In this document: in pieces, positions 24,041 through 43,356 of the stretch
How positions within the stretch are numbered: the first letter of the stretch is position 1
Layout: each line of letters starts with the position of its first letter
IMG/VR virus record: IMGVR_UViG_3300013004_003355
Span: 1-47,248 of that record
Strand: one strand, 5' to 3'
From: a virus
DNA: 47,248 bases
Notes under the pieces: model-generated
Told to the model about the DNA's origin: nothing
The model's input: the letters and a program-made list of their open reading frames with translations, nothing else
Databases searched by the model: none
Translations under genes and position numbers: made by a program

Positions 24041-24529
24041 ATGGCAATATTAGACGCAAACGAAATATTCTTCACAGCCTTTGAACCAAAACAGGCTAAC
24101 AGATTCATCCTTTATATGGATGGTATTCCTAGCTATATAGTTAAAGGAGTAAACGCTGTAACACTGACTCAAGGTGAAGTAACATTGAACCATATTAACG
24201 TATACAGAAAAGTTAAAGGAAAAACAACTTGGGGTAACATTCAAATGACATTATTTGACCCAATTACACCTTCCGGAGCTCAATCAGTAATGGAATGGGT
24301 TCGTTTACATCACGAATCAGTAACAGGTAGAGATGGATACTCTGACTTCTATAAAAAGGATTTAGTACTAGATGTATTAGGACCTGTAGGTGATGTAGTA
24401 AGTGAATGGATTATTAAAGGTGCCCTTATAACTGAAGCTAACTTTGGTGATTATAGTTGGGATACAGAAAACCAAGCAGTGAATATACAATTAACATTGA
24501 CAATGGATTACTGCGTATTAAACTTCTAA
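24041..24529 (+). CDS. Tail tube protein (gp19-like)
   Basis: A 162-residue tube subunit, within one residue of T4 gp19 (163). FTAFEPKQANRFILYMDGIP, WGNIQMTLFDPITPSGAQSV, MEWVRLHHESVTGRDGYSDF and LTLTMDYCVLNF are strongly family-like. It forms the inner tube of the contractile tail. It has its own late promoter and is closed by a strong terminator at 24551, which gives separate high expression from the downstream assembly genes. Confidence 0.95.
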   Translation: MAILDANEIFFTAFEPKQANRFILYMDGIPSYIVKGVNAVTLTQGEVTLNHINVYRKVKGKTTWGNIQMTLFDPITPSGAQSVMEWVRLHHESVTGRDGYSDFYKKDLVLDVLGPVGDVVSEWIIKGALITEANFGDYSWDTENQAVNIQLTLTMDYCVLNF

Positions 24530-24550: not shown

Positions 24551-24583
24551 GAGCTCGCATATTTTGCGAGCTTCTTTTTTTCT
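24551..24583 (+). terminator. Intrinsic terminator after tail tube gene
   Basis: AGCTCGCA (24552-24559), loop TATTT, TGCGAGCT (24565-24572), then TCTTTTTTTTCTT. A perfect 8-bp stem, extended by a G.T pair, with a long T-tract. Confidence 0.88.
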
Positions 24584-24625: not shown

Positions 24626-25357
24626 ATGAGCGAAAATAAATTAAACATTCCAACAGAAGTTGTTGAACTTCCATCATTAGGATTAATCTATCCTGAATCA
24701 TCACCATTATCAAGTGGTAAAATTGAAATGAAATATATGACGGCTAGAGAAGAAGATATTCTTACTAACCAAAACTATATATCAAAAGGAACAGTACTAG
24801 ACAAATTAATGCAATCACTTATAGTCTCAGATATAAATTATGATGAGTTATGTGTTGGTGACAAAAACGCTGTTATGGTAGCTGCCCGTGTATTAGGATA
24901 CGGTAAAGATTACTCAGTAACATATGGTGGTGAACAATATATTATTGACTTATCATTATTAGATAATAAATCATTAGATAAGAAATTATTTAAAAAAGGA
25001 GTAAACGAATTTGATTTTACTTTACCTCATACTAATACTCCTATTACATTTAAACTTTTAACTCATGGTGATGAAAAGAAAATTAGCCAAGAAATCGAAG
25101 GTTTAAAGAAAATCAATAAAGACACCTCACCAGAATTATCTACTCGTTTAAAATACATAATTACATCAGTAAATGGTGATCGTGAATTAAAAACAATTAG
25201 AGAATTTGTTGATAATTACTTATTAGCTCGTGATTCAAGAGCGTTAAGAGAATATATTAGACAAGTTCAACCTGATGTTGATTTAACATTTACTACAAAT
25301 GATGGAGAGGAGGCTATCATTCCAATCAATTTAAACTTTTTTTGGCCTGACATCTGA
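24626..25357 (+). CDS. Baseplate hub/assembly protein (gp26-like)
   Basis: A 243-residue protein. VVELPSLGLIYPESSPLSSG, IEMKYMTAREEDILTNQNYI, VLDKLMQSLIVSDINYDELC and AVMVAARVLGYGKDYSV match the gp26 baseplate-hub family of T4-like phages, where these segments are conserved. It lies between tail tube and tape measure, the standard position of tail-assembly chaperone genes in other tailed phages. The last codons AAC TTT TTT TGG CCT GAC ATC TGA contain a T7 run. The +1 frame that begins just there encodes a gp51-like protein without a usual start codon (25335-25628), so a part of the translation is probably shifted into a longer fusion. Confidence 0.8.
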   Translation: MSENKLNIPTEVVELPSLGLIYPESSPLSSGKIEMKYMTAREEDILTNQNYISKGTVLDKLMQSLIVSDINYDELCVGDKNAVMVAARVLGYGKDYSVTYGGEQYIIDLSLLDNKSLDKKLFKKGVNEFDFTLPHTNTPITFKLLTHGDEKKISQEIEGLKKINKDTSPELSTRLKYIITSVNGDRELKTIREFVDNYLLARDSRALREYIRQVQPDVDLTFTTNDGEEAIIPINLNFFWPDI

Positions 25358-25628
25358 TAACATCTCTGTAGTAAGAGCTAATTTATTTATTCAAATTCAT
25401 GAAATTGTTTTTCATGGTCAAGGTGGATATGATTGGGATACTATATATAACATGCCTTCATGGTTACGTAAGTTTACATTCAATCGAATACAAACTTATT
25501 ATAAAGAACAAAATAACGAACAGAATGAAGATTTAGCATCTCAATCTAAAAAGATAAAAGAAGGTAAAGTTGATTTACCATCTCATTTTAAAGGAAAAAT
25601 AGATAATAAAAAAATAGCCAAGTATTAA
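25335..25628 (+). CDS. gp51-like reading frame, probably made by ribosomal frameshift from gp26
   Basis: The +1 frame relative to gp26 is open from 25335 (after TAA at 25332-25334) to TAA at 25626-25628, 97 codons. Its translation includes ANLFIQIHEIVFHGQGGYDW and TIYNMPSWLRKFTFNRIQTY, which match the T4-family gp51 baseplate-hub assembly protein (IHEI.FHG.GGY....Y.MP.WLR.F). No ATG, GTG or TTG precedes this conserved part; the first ATG (25452) is inside it. A terminator overlaps its stop, which supports a true gene end. Expression is therefore most simply explained by a +1 or -2 shift at the T7 run 25337-25343, giving a fusion of about 335-340 residues. A non-AUG start (CTG 25347, ATC, ATT) or an indel error in the assembly are alternatives. 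Confidence 0.75.
   Translation, partial: TFFGLTSDNISVVRANLFIQIHEIVFHGQGGYDWDTIYNMPSWLRKFTFNRIQTYYKEQNNEQNEDLASQSKKIKEGKVDLPSHFKGKIDNKKIAKY
25337..25343 (+). other. Candidate slippery site (T7) for programmed frameshift
   Basis: Seven T between AAC and GGC: zero frame reads AAC TTT TTT TGG, the shifted frame continues TTT GGC CTG. The overlap of the two open frames is only 25335-25354, so the shift must occur in about 20 bases, and the T run is the only repetitive element there. Confidence 0.6.
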
Positions 25629-25641
25629 AACTTGGCTTTTT
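25616..25641 (+). terminator. Intrinsic terminator at end of gp51-like frame
   Basis: AGCCAAG (25616-25622), loop TATTAAAA, CTTGGCT (25631-25637), then four T, one further T and C. The gp51 stop codon lies in the loop. Confidence 0.75.
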
Positions 25642-25667: not shown

Positions 25668-28097
25668 ATGGCTCAAGTATCTCTTAACGAATTAGAAGAA
25701 TTAAAAAAACTATATCAACAGATTGATGCCCTTACAACGCAACAAGCTGAAGCAGAAGCTAACCGAGTTCAACAACTAGGAAATGCTAGCCAGCAATTAG
25801 CTCGATTACGTAAAGAATACAATGACCTTACCTCAGATATTTCAAGATCTTTAGATATATTCAGATCTATAACTCAAGAAATAAGTAAACAGAATTTAGG
25901 TATAAATGAATCTAAAAAAGGATATAATGGGTTATCATCTATAGCTGAGAAAGTCCAAAGTCATCAAAAAGGAATATCTGAATTATCTTCTAAAGATGTT
26001 GCTGAACTTCAGAAAAAAGTTAAACAAGAACAATTAAGATTATCTAATGCTCAAAGTTTATTACAAAATAAAGAGCAAGAGTTAACAATTGAAAAACAAC
26101 AAAAAGAAGCACTTGCTGCTCAACAAGCAGCTGGAATAGCTTATTTACAAAATCTTCAACAAACTGGAAATATATCAAGCAACCAGTTAAATCGATTAAA
26201 TGCTTTAATAAAAGCACAAGATAAAAATAATAAACAAATAGATTCTTTAAATACTAAACTTTTTGATGTTCAAACTGCATTTTCAAATAATGAAGCTATC
26301 ATTAATGAAACAGATGCTGGACTTAGAGATTTAAATTTAACTCTTGAAAGAACTTTTAAACAAGCTCAAAATGTTGAAAAAGCTTTAGGTTTAGGTGGTA
26401 ATGCTGCTAAGGGAATAGAAAAAGCTTTAAACAGTGTAGGTTTAGGTGATTTAGCTAGTAAATTAGGTTTAGACGAGGTTAATAAAAAAATGAAAGAAAC
26501 CGCTGACAGAGTTACTGAAGGTGGGGAGAAAGCAGCTGGTTTTGGAGGTAAAATTAGAGTTTTAGGGGCGGGTATAGCTGAGATGGGTAAACAACTAGCT
26601 AAAGGTCTTTTAGACCCATTAGCTATATTAGGTTTCTTATTAAAAGGATTTTTAGCTCTAGATAAAGCCCAAACTGAATTTACTAGAGAAACAGGACATA
26701 GTATTGATTTTGTCGATACACTAAATACTAGTTTAATATCCTCAGCTGATTATATTAGGGCAGCTACTGAATTAACTAAACAGTTTGGTTTGGCAGCAGA
26801 TGCTATTTTTACAAAAGAAACTCTTCAAGAAGCTACTGAAATGGTAGAATTGATGGGTGTTACTAATGAACAAGCAGGTGAATTAGCTCGATTATCTAAA
26901 ATATCAGGTACTGAATTAAAAGCTAATAATGAAAAAATTATGGCTTCTTATAGTAGTTTTGTTAAATTAAACAAAACAGGTATAAGTGCTAAATCTGTAT
27001 TTAATGATGTCGCTAAAGTATCTAGTACTATAGCTATGTCATTTAAAGGTAACACAGTAGAAATTGCTAAATCAGTAATGGAAGCTAGGAAATTAGGATT
27101 AAGTCTTGAACAAGTTGATAAAGTAGCAGAATCATTACTTAATTTTGAAGATAGTATAGCTGCTGAATTAGAAGCAGAATTATTAACTGGTAAGCAAATT
27201 AATCTAGAACAAGCTAGGTTATATGCATTAAACAACGATATAGCGGGTTTAACCAAGGAAATAGGTAATAACCAGGAAATCATCGCTTCATTCTCTTCAG
27301 GTAATCGTATCCAACAAGAAGCAATAGCTAAGACTTTAGGTATGAGTAGAGAAGAAATGTCTAAAATGATTTATGATTCACAAATAGCTAATGGTTTAAC
27401 AGAAGAACAAGCAGCTAAATTAGCAGATGTATCTTTAGAAGACATGAAACGATTAAGTATACAAGAAAGTATAAATAAATCTATAGAAAAAATGTCTGAA
27501 GCATTAGCTGGTCCTCTATCTATGTTAGCTGAAATGTTAAGTCATAGTACTATCTTGTATGGGATAATGGCAGGGATTGGAATTATTATGGCTAATCAAA
27601 TAGTAGCGAGCACAATAGCGTTTGGAAAAAGTTTAGCTACAGCTATACCTAAATTAACAGCTATATTAGGTTTAGAAAGTGGAATAGCTGCCGCTAAAAT
27701 AGCAGTAAATCCATTTTTATTAGTGGCAGGTGCCGCAGCTGCTATAGGATTAGGAGCTTTAATTAATTCTGCTTCAAAACCAAAAACACCTGGATTAGCA
27801 GAAGGAGGTACTGTATTAAGCGAAGGAGCTATTATGGTAGGAGAAGAAGGACCTGAAATTATGACCGCAAAACCAGGTGCAACTGTCACACCATTAAATT
27901 CATTAAACGCGGCTAAAACTGGAGGAAATGGAGGATCTGATGCAGCTATATTAAATGAAATTAAAAACTTACTACAACAAATAGCATCAACACCTGGTAC
28001 AGTTATGTTAGATGGAACTAAAATAGGAACAGCATTAACTCCGTTTGTAAACCAAACAAACATTCAAACACAAGTTAAAACAGGCGCTAATTTATAA
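25668..28097 (+). CDS. Tail tape measure-like protein
   Basis: A 809-residue protein with long N-terminal coiled coils (about 5-250, Gln/Lys/Leu-rich), hydrophobic stretches (about 305-330 LLDPLAILGFLLKGFLALD and 625-705 with Ala/Ile-rich segments) and a C-terminal GLAEGGTVLSEGAIMVGEEG followed by PEIM, a common end of phage tape measures. Position after the gp26/gp51 pair fits a tape measure, which sets tail length and leaves the tail ahead of the DNA. T4 uses the smaller gp29 (590 residues) for this. By the usual 1.5 angstrom per residue, it would suggest a tail of roughly 120 nm, longer than T4's. Confidence 0.82.
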   Translation: MAQVSLNELEELKKLYQQIDALTTQQAEAEANRVQQLGNASQQLARLRKEYNDLTSDISRSLDIFRSITQEISKQNLGINESKKGYNGLSSIAEKVQSHQKGISELSSKDVAELQKKVKQEQLRLSNAQSLLQNKEQELTIEKQQKEALAAQQAAGIAYLQNLQQTGNISSNQLNRLNALIKAQDKNNKQIDSLNTKLFDVQTAFSNNEAIINETDAGLRDLNLTLERTFKQAQNVEKALGLGGNAAKGIEKALNSVGLGDLASKLGLDEVNKKMKETADRVTEGGEKAAGFGGKIRVLGAGIAEMGKQLAKGLLDPLAILGFLLKGFLALDKAQTEFTRETGHSIDFVDTLNTSLISSADYIRAATELTKQFGLAADAIFTKETLQEATEMVELMGVTNEQAGELARLSKISGTELKANNEKIMASYSSFVKLNKTGISAKSVFNDVAKVSSTIAMSFKGNTVEIAKSVMEARKLGLSLEQVDKVAESLLNFEDSIAAELEAELLTGKQINLEQARLYALNNDIAGLTKEIGNNQEIIASFSSGNRIQQEAIAKTLGMSREEMSKMIYDSQIANGLTEEQAAKLADVSLEDMKRLSIQESINKSIEKMSEALAGPLSMLAEMLSHSTILYGIMAGIGIIMANQIVASTIAFGKSLATAIPKLTAILGLESGIAAAKIAVNPFLLVAGAAAAIGLGALINSASKPKTPGLAEGGTVLSEGAIMVGEEGPEIMTAKPGATVTPLNSLNAAKTGGNGGSDAAILNEIKNLLQQIASTPGTVMLDGTKIGTALTPFVNQTNIQTQVKTGANL

Positions 28098-28128: not shown

Positions 28129-28410
28129 ATGGGATTATTAGATTTACTTCAAAACCAAGGATCTACCTTAACAGCTTATGATGGGACTACTCCTAGTATT
28201 AATCCACTAGCTACTCCTCAATCTCAAATGCATACTGGGTATTCAATTAATGGCACTAACGCTAATGTTGTCAATGGATCATATCAAGAGTACTTAGATG
28301 GTACTGCTAACTTTTTACCAACACCATCACAATTAGATTTAAATGGTGCTACCCCAAATATCTCTCCAAGCGGACAAGGGTTACCATATTTGAATAATTT
28401 ACCTGGATAA
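28129..28410 (+). CDS. Small tail/baseplate-region protein
   Basis: A 93-residue Asn/Pro/Gly/Thr-rich protein with little predicted helix, for example LATPQSQMHTGYSING and SPSGQGLPYLNNLPG. No family recognised. It starts MGLLDLLQNQG, echoing the MGLIDLRTDL of the next protein, which overlaps its stop by one base (TAATG). Probably a baseplate component; it is the first gene of a unit reaching at least 36311. Confidence 0.55.
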   Translation: MGLLDLLQNQGSTLTAYDGTTPSINPLATPQSQMHTGYSINGTNANVVNGSYQEYLDGTANFLPTPSQLDLNGATPNISPSGQGLPYLNNLPG

Positions 28411-30605
28411 TGGGATTAATTGATTTAAGAACTGATCTTAAATCTCTCAGATATGGTAATGATCAAAGAGGAGGTGGTTCAAGTAACCAACCTTACATTA
28501 CCACTTCCATACCTGAGGGTTTTGCTCCAACGTCAACAGATTTTTTGTTACGTAATGGATATTTAAACCCTGTTAACTCATTCCAGGATGTAAAAAGATT
28601 ATCTAAATTCTTTACTGATACAAAAACTCCTAATGGTTTATTATTCACTATTAAACAACAATTATTAGAGAGACAAAATCCTAAATTAGTTAATATTAAT
28701 AGAATTTATAATCCATTAGGAACATTAGCTCAAGCTGGTTTAAATTCTTTAGGTTTTCATGTTAATAAACAAGGTTTAAACCCATCAGAACCATCATATT
28801 TTAATGGTGGAACTTATGGTTATTACTACGCTACTAGAGGATTAGGTACAAATCCTCAATCTCAATTTTTACAAGGTGAAGGATATGAAAATAGATTAAC
28901 TATAGCATATACTGCTAAAATAGAAAAAAAACCATTAGGTTCTTTAACTATTAATCCTTTTGGTATAACAAATTTATCTGGGGAAAATATTCTATTATCA
29001 TATTCTGGAGGTCCTAATGCTCCATTAGGATTAGGGATAACTAATATTAGAATTAAAAATCCTACTCGTACTGTAGATTTACCTAAAGATAGAACTACAT
29101 TTAGACTTAAAATAGGTGGAGACAATATTGCTAATAAAAATTATTTAACATATACTGGTAAACCAAATATCAATTGGGTTCTTGATGAGTATAAACTTAA
29201 TATATCTAATCAGGTTATATTTGATTTAGATTTAGAAAATAATCAAGATATATTATTTACAAATAATGTTAGTAATATATTAAATAGAAGCAATGATAAT
29301 GTTGTAAGTACATTATATGCTCCTATATCTGCTAAAGAAAGTACATTAGAAATAAACAGACTAGGATCAGATCCTTCTAAACCAGAATATTATACTCCTA
29401 CTAGTTTAAGAGTTAGTAATTATGGTTACCAAGTATCATCATCTGGAGTAACTGAAGCAGCTATAAATAGATTTAAACTAGTAACAGACAGAAATAGTAC
29501 AACACTCCCACTTGAAAATAGAAATGATCTATACTTTTCAGATGCTAATATAGCAGGTTTTGTTGGAGCTTTTCCAAAGAATGTTGATGAAAGTAATAAT
29601 GTTCGTACTTTTTCAACTACACAATTATTAGACGCTGAGTCTGCTGGAAAATTAAAAGATACAGATTTTGGGACAAATGTTATAGATTTTAGATCAACAA
29701 TTGATGCTAGTTTAGGTGGTGGTAAAATTGTATCTACTAACTATAGTTTTTTTAACAGAGAAAATAAAAGCCAAGACCAAGAAGGATATGGTACTAGTAA
29801 AACCTCATTTAAAGGAAATTATACAGCAGATAGAGGAAGAGTATTAAACCCAAATATAGCTATATCAAATGATCAATTTGAAATAGGTAAAAACGGAGAA
29901 GATATTATAGATTTTAACTTTAGAATACTTAATCCAGCAAACACAGGAAATAATAGATTAATTGATTTTAGAGCATATCTTGAATCATGGAGTGATGGAG
30001 TAAAAGCTGATTATAATCCTGTTAAATACATGGGTAGAGCTGAAAGTTTTTATAAATATGGTGGATTTTCAAGAGATTCTTCTATTGAATTTTTAGTTCC
30101 TGCTTTATCAAGAGGAGATATGATTTCTAATTATCGTAAAGTTAATATGATGATGTGGGCATGTGCTCCTAATTACTCTAGTATAGGATTAATGAGAGGT
30201 AATATTACTGAAGTGTCAATGGGTTCTTATTTTAGAAGTATGCCTTCTATTATTAAAAGTGTAGATGTGGTTGAAATAGATGGAATGGGATGGGATATAA
30301 ATCGAAACCAAGAAGGTAAGGTCATTGACTTCCCAGCAGAATATAAAGATAGTATAGGCTTTCAAGATCCTAAAGATTTTGCACCACCAACAGCTGATGA
30401 TTTTTTTACTGGGCAGTTGCCAAAAGGATTAAAAATAACAGTTCAATTCACTCCACTCCATCAATTCACCCCAGAATATGGTCAAGCATTTATAGGTCAA
30501 AATCAAACATATGCTGGTCCATTATGGAATCAGGAAAGCACAATTAATAGAAGTGTATTCTTTTCTTCTGAAGAAAGAAATTATTTTCAAGCATCACCAA
30601 AATGA
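28410..30605 (+). CDS. Large baseplate-region structural protein
   Basis: A 731-residue protein, family not recognised. It is rich in Asn, Tyr, Gly and beta-prone sequence, with IDFRAYLESWSDGVKADYNP, NYRKVNMMMWACAPNYSSIG and LKITVQFTPLHQFTPEYGQA in the C-terminal third. The last of these resembles the tube-like (gp27/gpD fold) part of hub proteins, but that is weak. It lies between tape measure and hub, co-translated with neighbours (TAATG at start, ATGA at end), so a central baseplate role is inferred. Confidence 0.6.
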   Translation: MGLIDLRTDLKSLRYGNDQRGGGSSNQPYITTSIPEGFAPTSTDFLLRNGYLNPVNSFQDVKRLSKFFTDTKTPNGLLFTIKQQLLERQNPKLVNINRIYNPLGTLAQAGLNSLGFHVNKQGLNPSEPSYFNGGTYGYYYATRGLGTNPQSQFLQGEGYENRLTIAYTAKIEKKPLGSLTINPFGITNLSGENILLSYSGGPNAPLGLGITNIRIKNPTRTVDLPKDRTTFRLKIGGDNIANKNYLTYTGKPNINWVLDEYKLNISNQVIFDLDLENNQDILFTNNVSNILNRSNDNVVSTLYAPISAKESTLEINRLGSDPSKPEYYTPTSLRVSNYGYQVSSSGVTEAAINRFKLVTDRNSTTLPLENRNDLYFSDANIAGFVGAFPKNVDESNNVRTFSTTQLLDAESAGKLKDTDFGTNVIDFRSTIDASLGGGKIVSTNYSFFNRENKSQDQEGYGTSKTSFKGNYTADRGRVLNPNIAISNDQFEIGKNGEDIIDFNFRILNPANTGNNRLIDFRAYLESWSDGVKADYNPVKYMGRAESFYKYGGFSRDSSIEFLVPALSRGDMISNYRKVNMMMWACAPNYSSIGLMRGNITEVSMGSYFRSMPSIIKSVDVVEIDGMGWDINRNQEGKVIDFPAEYKDSIGFQDPKDFAPPTADDFFTGQLPKGLKITVQFTPLHQFTPEYGQAFIGQNQTYAGPLWNQESTINRSVFFSSEERNYFQASPK

Positions 30606-39864: not shown

Positions 39865-42800
39865 ATGCCAAACTGGAAAAAAGTCGTTGTATCTGGCTCA
39901 AACGCCATATTAAATTCTGTCACAGCCTCATTTACAGGTTCATTAACTGGTGCTTTAATAGGTACAGCATCTTGGGCAACTAACGCTACAAACGCTGTAG
40001 TAACTGTAACAACAGCAAACTCTGACATGTATCTTGGTTTGGCTTCTACGACAGGAGTTACGGGTATATTAGCAGATACTTCAGGTATTACCTACAATCC
40101 TAGCACTAATACGTTAGGAGGAGCATATACTTCAACCGGTACTCATAAAGGAACTTTTCAAGTAAATTCAATCAATACGGCAGGAACCTACTATCCAGTA
40201 TTTGCTGGTGGCGCAGGCGATACTATACTATATGCAGATGGCGATGCTACTTTTAATTACAATCCAGGTGGAAATTTATTGAGTGTAGGGGCTGTTAGCG
40301 CCACTTCACTCACGGGATCGCATCTAGGAAACACAGTTGGGACAGCATCATGGGCTACTAATTCTTCTACTGCTTCTTTTGTTAACACACTAAACCAAAA
40401 TGTATTAATTACAGGTAGTGTTACTATAGGATCAAGTAGTTTAGGACCAAGTGAAAATACATTAACTCTAGGAGCACGTGATAGTGTAAATGAAGGAGGT
40501 CAAATAGGATTTAATGCTCCTGGTGGGACTTACACATCCGCTTCATTTATCGATCTTTATCAAAACAGAATTAGAATACTCAAAGGTACAAACGCTAGTA
40601 GTACTGGTGAAGTTATTACTTGGAATCTTGGTACCCTTCAAATGGTGTTACCTGCATATACTAATGCATCATCATTCCCAGGAACAGCCACAGCAAACTT
40701 AGCAGTTGACTCAAGTGGTAATGTAATAACAGTATCTACAGCAGGTGGAGCAGCATTCCCATTTACCGGCTCCGCTCTAATAACAGGTAGTTTAGGAGTT
40801 ACAGGCTCAACTTCAATACAAGGAACACTTAATCAAGGATCAGCTTCAATTGCATCAGGATTATTCTCTCATGTACAAGGACTATTAACTACAGCATCAG
40901 GAATCTATTCACATGCTGAAGGAGATAGTACACACACATCTGGATCGTATTCACATGCAGAAGGATCTCTTAGTCGAGCATTTGGAAACTATTCACACGC
41001 AGAAGGTAGTAATTCATTAGCTGAAGGTAATTATTCACACGCAGAAGGTACTAGTTTAGCAATTGGAGATGTTTCACACGCAGAAGGAGTAGGAATAGCA
41101 GTTGGAGACTATTCACACGCTGAAGGAACAGGAACAACATCTGGATCGTATTCACACGCTGAAGGTAATGGTACAATAACATCTGGATCCTACTCTCACG
41201 CAGAAGGTAGTACTACTAATGCAATTGGAAATAGTTCACACGCGGAAGGTTCAAGTACCAAAACAGGAATTACAACTGCATACGCATCAACTGTATCTTC
41301 TGGAGTTGTAACTTTAAACTCTACATATGGTGATGTAAGCCTAGAGTTTGCAACTGATAATAACTTATTATTATACGATACTCCATTTGATGCTATTTAT
41401 GGAACATCCACTTTTATTATAAGTCAATCTTATTTTTCATCTCCAAACACAATTGTAGAATTAGTTGATACAAGTGTAACTACTACAACAGCATATGTAG
41501 GTAGTTTAAATTATGGAGTAAGCGGCTGGATCGGCGATTCAACTATACCTGGAGATTATTCACACGCAGAAGGAAATACTAGCGCAGCAGTTGGAGGATC
41601 TTCACATGCAGAAGGTCGAGAAACAATAGCAGTAGGAGCATCTTCACATGCTGAAGGACGTGGTACTAATGCAATTGGAGGTGGTTCACACGCAGAAGGT
41701 TATCTTACAATAGCAGTTGGAGGATTTTCACACGCAGAAGGTGTTGAAACTCAAGCAATTGGAGATGTTTCACACGCAGAAGGAGAAGGTACAATAGCAT
41801 CTGGATTTGCTTCACACGCTGAAGGTGCAGAAACTAAAGCAATTGGACCATATTCACATGCAGAAGGTCGAAGGACATCAGCATCTGGAGACTGGTCACA
41901 CGCTGAAGGTGCTAATACTAAAGCCCTTGGAACCTGGTCACACGCAGAAGGATTAGGTACAGTAGCATCAGGCTCATATCAACACGTCCAAGGACAATAT
42001 AACATATCTTCATCAGCAGAAAGTGCATTTATTATAGGAAATGGAATTAATGATGCTAACCGATCAAACTTAGTCTTTGCCTCTGGTTCACAATTTCAAA
42101 TTACTGGTTCTGCTTTAATAACAGGTAGTTTAGGGGTAACTGGATCATTTAACCAAGGTTCAGCCTCATTAGCATCAGGTTTATTCTCTCATGTACAAGG
42201 ATTAGCCAACACAGCATCAGGAATTTATTCTCATGCAGAAGGAAATAGTACACACGCATCTGGATCATATTCACACGCTGAAGGATTAGGTACAATAGCA
42301 TCTGGATCATGGTCACACGCTGAAGGTCGAAGTGCAATATCAATTGGAGCATTTTCACACGCAGAAGGTCGAGATACAGTAGCATCTGGATCCAATTCGC
42401 ATGCAGAAGGTAATAATACACAAGCAATTGGAGACAATTCACATGCAGAAGGTGCCGCTACTCAAGCAATTGGACAAGGATCTCATGCTGAAGGATTTAA
42501 TACAGTAGCATCAGGCTCATATCAACACGTCCAAGGTCAATATAACCTATTCTCATCAGCAGAAAGTGCATTTATTATAGGAAATGGAACTAGTGGCGCT
42601 GCTAGATCAAATCTAGTCTTTGCCTCTGGTTCACAATTCCAAATTACAGGCTCATTAAGAGTAAGTGGTAGTATTACTGGTTCATTATTTGGAACAGCAT
42701 CATGGGCACAAAGCGCTTCAAATGCTATTATAGCAATAGATGCAACATCAGCAGAAGCAGCTAAAACTGTACGAACAATATCAAGTAGTGTAAATGCTGT

Positions 42801-43356
42801 TTTTTATCCTACATTTGTAGATTCTAATAACACACCAGCATCAAATGAAGCTTTATACACCTCAGATAGAATAACTTTTAATCCTGGAGGGCAAGTTTTA
42901 AATGTCCGAGGACTTTCTGCACAAAATATCCAAGTCACAAGTTCATTAACTGTTAGCGGTTCATTAATATTTACACCACCAACATCTCCTGCATTTAATG
43001 GTGAAATAGTAAGATTTGGAGCAGGTACACTAACAACAGGACAACTATACTTTCTTAGTTCATCTGGTACATGGTCACTTGCAAATGCTAATTCAACAGG
43101 TAGTAGTACAGGTATGTTAGGTATAGCAGTTGGCTCATCACCAACAACACAAGGATTATTAGTTAGAGGATATGCGGCTAGTTCTTCATATACAACAGCA
43201 ACTGGATCAATTTTGTATGTTGCTACTTCATCTGGTTTAATAACAGCAACACCACCTTCTTCATCAAACCATGTAGTTAGAGTTATTGGGTATAAAACAA
43301 CTTTATCAGACACAATTTATTTCACACCAGACCCAACTTGGGTAACATTAGCATAA
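39865..43356 (+). CDS. Large fibre/adhesin with SHAEG beta-roll repeats
   Basis: A 1163-residue protein. The N-terminal anchor PNWKKVVVSGSNAILNSVTA is shared with the fibre at 37562. From about residue 330 to 895 it has 26 copies, counted by eye, of SHAEG, spaced 13-16 residues, with Gly and Thr/Ala at fixed positions, as in the YadA/Hia-type left-handed beta roll of trimeric adhesins. The roll is in two modules, each opening with FSHVQG and closing with YQHVQGQYN then SSAESAFIIGNG. The first module is interrupted by a domain of about 90 residues (about 468-565). The C-terminal part (about 1035-1163) is a beta tip (GEIVRFGAGTLTTGQLYFLS). It is a probable trimeric receptor-binding fibre; no late TATTTATA lies between it and the next gene. 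Confidence 0.82.
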   Translation: MPNWKKVVVSGSNAILNSVTASFTGSLTGALIGTASWATNATNAVVTVTTANSDMYLGLASTTGVTGILADTSGITYNPSTNTLGGAYTSTGTHKGTFQVNSINTAGTYYPVFAGGAGDTILYADGDATFNYNPGGNLLSVGAVSATSLTGSHLGNTVGTASWATNSSTASFVNTLNQNVLITGSVTIGSSSLGPSENTLTLGARDSVNEGGQIGFNAPGGTYTSASFIDLYQNRIRILKGTNASSTGEVITWNLGTLQMVLPAYTNASSFPGTATANLAVDSSGNVITVSTAGGAAFPFTGSALITGSLGVTGSTSIQGTLNQGSASIASGLFSHVQGLLTTASGIYSHAEGDSTHTSGSYSHAEGSLSRAFGNYSHAEGSNSLAEGNYSHAEGTSLAIGDVSHAEGVGIAVGDYSHAEGTGTTSGSYSHAEGNGTITSGSYSHAEGSTTNAIGNSSHAEGSSTKTGITTAYASTVSSGVVTLNSTYGDVSLEFATDNNLLLYDTPFDAIYGTSTFIISQSYFSSPNTIVELVDTSVTTTTAYVGSLNYGVSGWIGDSTIPGDYSHAEGNTSAAVGGSSHAEGRETIAVGASSHAEGRGTNAIGGGSHAEGYLTIAVGGFSHAEGVETQAIGDVSHAEGEGTIASGFASHAEGAETKAIGPYSHAEGRRTSASGDWSHAEGANTKALGTWSHAEGLGTVASGSYQHVQGQYNISSSAESAFIIGNGINDANRSNLVFASGSQFQITGSALITGSLGVTGSFNQGSASLASGLFSHVQGLANTASGIYSHAEGNSTHASGSYSHAEGLGTIASGSWSHAEGRSAISIGAFSHAEGRDTVASGSNSHAEGNNTQAIGDNSHAEGAATQAIGQGSHAEGFNTVASGSYQHVQGQYNLFSSAESAFIIGNGTSGAARSNLVFASGSQFQITGSLRVSGSITGSLFGTASWAQSASNAIIAIDATSAEAAKTVRTISSSVNAVFYPTFVDSNNTPASNEALYTSDRITFNPGGQVLNVRGLSAQNIQVTSSLTVSGSLIFTPPTSPAFNGEIVRFGAGTLTTGQLYFLSSSGTWSLANANSTGSSTGMLGIAVGSSPTTQGLLVRGYAASSSYTTATGSILYVATSSGLITATPPSSSNHVVRVIGYKTTLSDTIYFTPDPTWVTLA
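40861..42545 (+). repeat. SHAEG-encoding repeat array, duplicated module
   Basis: Repeats of about 42-48 bases, core TTCACACGCAGAAGG or close variants, in three blocks: about 40861-41266, 41556-41990 and 42180-42545. The flanks of the first and last block are also duplicated: about 40790-40925 resembles 42115-42245 (AATAACAGGTAGTTTAGG to the ACACACATCTGGATC/ACACGCATCTGGATC end), and ATCAACACGTCCAAGG recurs at about 41980 and 42522. The array arose by internal duplication and keeps its reading frame throughout. Confidence 0.8.

Follow-up and report, generated by a model that had tools for sequence, protein, structure and literature searches.

Tailed phages use −1, −2 or +1 frameshifts to make their tail chaperones, T4 having been the exception (Atkins et al. 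2016, PMC5009743). The lambda gpG/gpGT pair (−1), phage Mu (−2) and HSTV-2, whose tail chaperone very likely uses +1, all produce a short and an extended chaperone from one gene pair placed before the tape measure gene (PMC5009743). A gp26-like/gp51-like pair was found in the position of such gpG/gpGT-type pairs, flanked by a tail tube gene and a tape-measure-like gene, in the window, i.e. the whole 47 kb IMG/VR record analyzed here (47,248 nt), which is the sequence of a virus of bacteria. No sequence relation of the window pair to the lambda, Mu or HSTV-2 proteins was found, the PDB sequence search with the TAC parts returning nothing. The window also differs from these systems in having a +1 site of the form UUU UUU UGG within a T4-type family that has −1 sister groups.

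The study by Vladimirov, Gautam and Davidson (2022, Virology 566:9-15) dealt with T4-like phages and identified their TAC genes; frameshifting is reportedly conserved in several T4-like groups, with T4 itself said to use genes 26 and 51. In the passages that cite this study, some T4-like phages are described as carrying a fused gene alongside a short one (PMC10885494, citing Vladimirov et al. 2022), and poly-T −1 signals are described in T4-like TAC-N genes (PMC12846349, citing Vladimirov et al. 2022). The principle of frameshifted tail chaperones is already published, also for T4-like phages. The +1 direction in T4-type chaperones looks new: no report of it was found in a literature search lacking most subscription journals, and priority is uncertain.

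In the window, a tail tube protein gene (24041..24529, + strand; phrog_4542, E=7.4e-22) is followed on the same strand by the gp26-like gene encoding the short chaperone form TAC-N (24626..25357; 243 aa plus stop; phrog_150, E=1.3e-8), by an open +1 frame encoding the gp51-like C-terminal domain TAC-C (25335..25628), and by a probable tape measure gene (25668..28097). The latter was assigned mainly by position, together with its length, its match to phrog_167 being weak (E=0.098), and it occupies the same slot as the annotated tape measure genes of related phage records. Terminator-like hairpins lie between the tube gene and gp26 (24551..24573, +) and over the TAC-C stop codon (25616..25637, +), where a terminator had already been noticed in the preliminary description of this DNA, so that the gene pair forms one unit. 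Matches of the window's terminase, portal and major head proteins to phrog_2, phrog_213 and phrog_138, respectively, are consistent with a T4-type phage. The closest isolate is Flavobacterium phage immuto (65% identity for gp26), which makes a Bacteroidetes host likely. Two ORFs located 3′ of the tape measure gene (28129-28410 and 28410-30605) had no PHROG or Pfam match; in T4-type phages, hub and tube-cap proteins are encoded at this place. Positions 39865-43356 encode a repetitive protein of 1163 aa, matched by phrog_25468 in six stretches.

The gp26-like gene ends with AAC TTT TTT TGG CCT GAC ATC TGA, its product terminating in ..LNFFWPDI*. The slip site TTT TTT TGG (25337..25345, +) contains a run of seven T (25337-25343), as previously described, but the overlap between the two frames is not limited to this run and spans 23 nt (25335-25357). 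Relative to gp26, TAC-C is in the +1 (equivalently −2) frame. A TAA stop in that frame closely precedes the slip site (25332..25334, +) and bars translation of TAC-C from farther upstream. The reported lack of ATG, GTG or TTG ahead of the conserved part of TAC-C was borne out, the first ATG of the frame being at 25452, within the conserved part, with none of the three codons before it. In the window, slipping by −1 would lead to a TGA after TTG GCC, and therefore cannot make TAC-C. The two reading frames, the absence of a start codon, the conservation of the slip site and the homology detailed below are read directly from the sequences.

The locus very probably directs a programmed +1 frameshift whose products are TAC-N (gp26) and, as a longer fusion, TAC-NC, and it is close to certain that a programmed frameshift of some kind occurs there. 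The occurrence of the shift, its +1 direction, its rate and the chaperone role are inferred. Most ribosomes would read gp26 to the TGA at 25355, giving TAC-N, while a fraction would stall with UUU-bound tRNA-Phe in the P site, the next codon being still unfilled. The P-site tRNA would then re-pair one base forward and continue in the +1 frame, joining the segment at about 25338-25628 to gp26 in a predicted fusion of 333 aa. UUU is among the most +1-shift-prone P-site codons, after CUU (PMC10885494), which fits the slip site of the window. By analogy with lambda gpG/gpGT, TAC-N and TAC-NC may act as chaperones, many copies of the former and a few of the latter binding the tape measure protein, with the C domain of TAC-NC recruiting tube subunits.

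The identity of the two domains was established by profile comparison. When searched in phage records, phrog_150 proved to be composed of an N domain (positions 1-234) and a C domain (positions 227-282). T4 gp26 matched positions 10-236 and T4 gp51 positions 3-281, i.e. the whole TAC-NC profile, and in cyanophages the two pieces are found in two frames. These extents equate T4 gp26 with the short form (TAC-N) and T4 gp51 with the long form (TAC-NC), leaving the window's gp51-like ORF as a C domain alone. The preliminary description had presented gp26 and gp51 as the T4-type counterparts of the lambda G and GT chaperones, which is already in the literature; the ORF, however, corresponds only to the C-terminal domain of T4 gp51. 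In T4, genes 26 and 51 are separate, on opposite strands and without frameshift.

Both TAC-N and TAC-C of the window are homologous to the T4-type TAC family (phrog_150; gp26/gp51). A profile built from 195 TAC-C sequences of the window's relatives matched the canonical C domains of P-SSM2, S-PM2 and HTVC008M (E about 1e-5), and profile-profile comparison of TAC-C with the canonical C domain using hhalign gave P=5.8e-8, both values being approximate because of the small databases. Members of the family also weakly matched a PHROG named tail assembly chaperone (12 of 29, best E=0.0063) and phrog_634, baseplate hub assembly catalyst. In Pfam, neither the gp26-like nor the gp51-like part had a match above cut-offs. 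TAC-N and TAC-C were folded as separate models, the AF2 model of TAC-N having a pLDDT of 91.8 and that of TAC-C being of low confidence (pLDDT 66). The predicted TAC-N fold matched predicted T4-type hub proteins, including those of SP-15 and CP220 and, weakly, Aeromonas phage 25 gp26. Nothing significant was returned by the PDB fold search; in the comparison with the HK97 gp13-like fold, 2ob9 came at rank 10 and was not significant (E=1.6; TM 0.48 by target length). Campylobacter phage CP81 has three distinct weak matches to phrog_150 on one strand within about 1.1 kb, which may represent duplicated or split chaperone genes.

The alignment of related loci proposed in the preliminary description showed that the frame relation and the slip site are kept. 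In the first relatives, TAC-C was in the +1 frame over TTTTTTTGGCC in 80 of 80 cases. The analysis was extended to 263 loci, comprising relatives from the scans and phage records, each with a complete gp26 stop, and scored by running the TAC-C profile in three frames; TAC-C was in the +1 frame at 261 of them, these loci not being independent samples owing to the shared ancestry of the phages. Eleven more loci came from a subsequent scan and were all +1; they included nine new loci near L208 and L309 as well as one MAG contig. Scans with the gp26 of RM378 and of SP-15 each found only themselves. One jumbo phage (L302) was set aside, its weak C-domain match lying in the other frame with an overlapping ATG.

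The slip motif is almost invariant in relatives. TTT TTT TGG was found in 165 unique genes, TTT CTT TGG in 31 and TTC TTT TGG in 13, followed by TTT CTA TGG (4), CTT TTT TGG (3) and TTT TTT TAC (3), with TTT CTT TAC and TTT CTA TTC found once each. The site is also kept in Flavobacterium, Microcystis, Rhodothermus (RM378; TTT TTT TGG), Bacillus (SP-15; TTT TTT CAC) and Listeria phages, the LIS04 record having TTT TTT AGT. Homopolymer errors are common, and the two frames could in principle be a single ORF split by a sequencing error or by gene decay. This reading is refuted in practice by the conservation of the same frame relation at 261 of 263 loci, in an isolate genome and in distant relatives, and by purifying selection on TAC-C 3′ of the gp26 stop (median dN/dS of 0.20 over 395 pairs). 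The agreement of many independent contigs with the isolate genome likewise answers the concern over a miscounted T run. Taken with the near-invariant motif, the two frame counts and this dN/dS indicate that the arrangement is not due to chance.

The homopolymer at the gp26/TAC-C junction would also be compatible with slippage of the RNA polymerase on the T run, producing mixed transcripts that encode both forms, but seven T are short for such slippage. Moreover, the clades in which the run is broken (TTTCTTT, TTTCTAT and TTCTTTT) retain the same frame relation, and a homopolymer-based slippage of transcripts does not fit these broken runs; this origin of the two forms is considered highly improbable.

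TAC-C could instead be made as a separate protein, either from a non-AUG start or by re-initiation after the gp26 stop. Possible starts in the +1 frame do exist in many relatives, with a TTG located 11 nt before the site at 83 of 204 unique junctions and some ATG at 74 of 204, and TAC-C has its own ATG in L208 and L214. However, no ATG was found before the conserved core at 130 of the 204 junctions, and at 59 of 204, window included, there was no usual start codon of any kind (ATG, GTG or TTG). Conservation of the +1-frame peptide begins at the slip, with F2, G3, L4 and T5 each conserved in at least 90% of sequences (alignment of 29 relatives), although this stretch shares bases with gp26. The slip site is kept where no start exists and lost where a start is present, and separate translation of TAC-C is considered very unlikely.

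L208 (1501-2600) and L214 (1501-2511) are the two loci that are not in the +1 relation. In these sister loci, the T run is replaced by TTC TTG TAT or TTC CTT TGG and TAC-C begins at its own ATG right after the gp26 stop, so that loss of the slip site accompanies gain of a start codon. The preliminary description had named relatives with a separate start as evidence against a frameshift, and such relatives do exist; but because their slip run is lost and they are nested in the frameshifting TTT CTT TGG clade, they are read as a secondary loss of frameshifting.

The preliminary description left the direction between +1 and −2, and the relatives favor +1. A −2 shift as in phage Mu would take the P-site tRNA back by two bases within the T run and lengthen the fusion by one residue. 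Such shifts are known in tail chaperones (PMC5009743), and the T7 form of the window taken alone would permit one (UUU to UUU). Each unique junction was examined for the ability of the P-site tRNA to pair with a cognate codon after a +1 or −2 move. Re-pairing was possible at all 204 junctions for +1, compared to 161 of 204 for −2, in a test that is lenient, as any cognate codon in the overlap counts, and whose force lies in the aligned motif. Cognate −2 re-pairing was absent at the other 43 of 204 junctions, including the whole TTC TTT TGG, TTT CTT TGG and TTT CTA TGG clades, which fail −2 at the aligned motif (in TTT CTT TGG, only a first-position G-U pair would form). A −2 shift is therefore an unlikely alternative to the +1 shift, though less so than slippage of the polymerase or separate translation.

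Codon usage at the site was also skewed in a way that fits +1, in counts that again come from phages of shared ancestry. The second slip codon, when encoding Phe, was TTT in 184 of 184 cases and never TTC (0/184), although TTC accounted for 402 of 1992 Phe codons in the rest of the genes, and the first slip codon was TTC only in the clade where the second is TTT. The Pro codon after the site was CCT in 219 of 221 cases, compared to 826 of 2192 elsewhere.

In the bacterial prfB gene (RF2), the +1 frameshift takes place at CUU UGA C. The P-site tRNA moves forward on CUU in prfB and would do so on CUU or UUU here, and the CTT TGG site of the immuto clade is one base from CTT TGA. The A-site codon, however, is UGG or UAC rather than a stop, there is no Shine-Dalgarno sequence 3 nt upstream, and no autoregulation applies. 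The sole AGGAGG (25308-25313) precedes the slip site by 23 nt, more than prfB-type spacing allows, and no conserved RNA structure was found downstream of the site (mean z of −0.48 and −0.74, compared to −1.26 for the control region), so that no frameshift stimulator was identified. An Rfam search gave only sub-threshold chance matches.

The canonical T4-like TAC genes share with the window homologous N and C domains, an overlap at the gp26 end and a Phe-Phe site near the 0-frame stop, but their C domain lies in the −1 frame. This was the case in 15 of 15 canonical T4-like or Ackermann-type records tested, mostly at TTT TTY (P-SSM2, S-PM2, HTVC008M, Cr30, phiM12, phiW-14, S-CAM22, Syn1, Melnitz-3, S-CRM01, Desulfovibrio 7757, Vibrio D531, Vibrio 207E48.1, Aeromonas phiA8-29 and Rhizobium RHph_I1_9), the C-domain profile match being weak in phiW-14, D531, 207E48.1 and phiA8-29. 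Within this group (L098, L099, L101, L102, L104), an ATG in the C-domain frame often lies a few bases or less after the gp26 stop, so that the C domain may be made as a separate product there as well.

In the TAC-N tree, which is unrooted, the −1 group, together with T4 and KVP40, was split with 100/99 support from a +1 group containing SP-15, LIS04, RM378, the jumbo phage LR756508 and the window's relatives. As RM378 and T4 gp51 have long branches and the tree is unrooted, a single switch of direction, from either state to the other, is the simplest reading. On balance, it appears probable that the direction of frameshifting changed once, deep in the T4-type chaperone tree, with retention of the Phe-Phe site, and that the +1 signal UUU UUU UGG is stand-alone, needing no stop codon, RNA structure or nearby Shine-Dalgarno sequence to work.

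The locus thereby adds to the frameshifting tail chaperones a large and widespread T4-type clade of hundreds of metagenome contigs, which also spans Flavobacterium, Microcystis, Rhodothermus, Bacillus and Listeria phages. Opposite slip directions in sister clades, together with the split genes of T4, offer a natural series for studying the evolution of frameshift direction, and the +1 site, being short and having no obvious helper element, is directly testable in a reporter. The comparison also corrects the annotation of the C domain in three public records. Those of immuto and SP-15 start it wrongly, listing a portion of it as a short hypothetical protein with an internal start, and that of LIS04 leaves it out.
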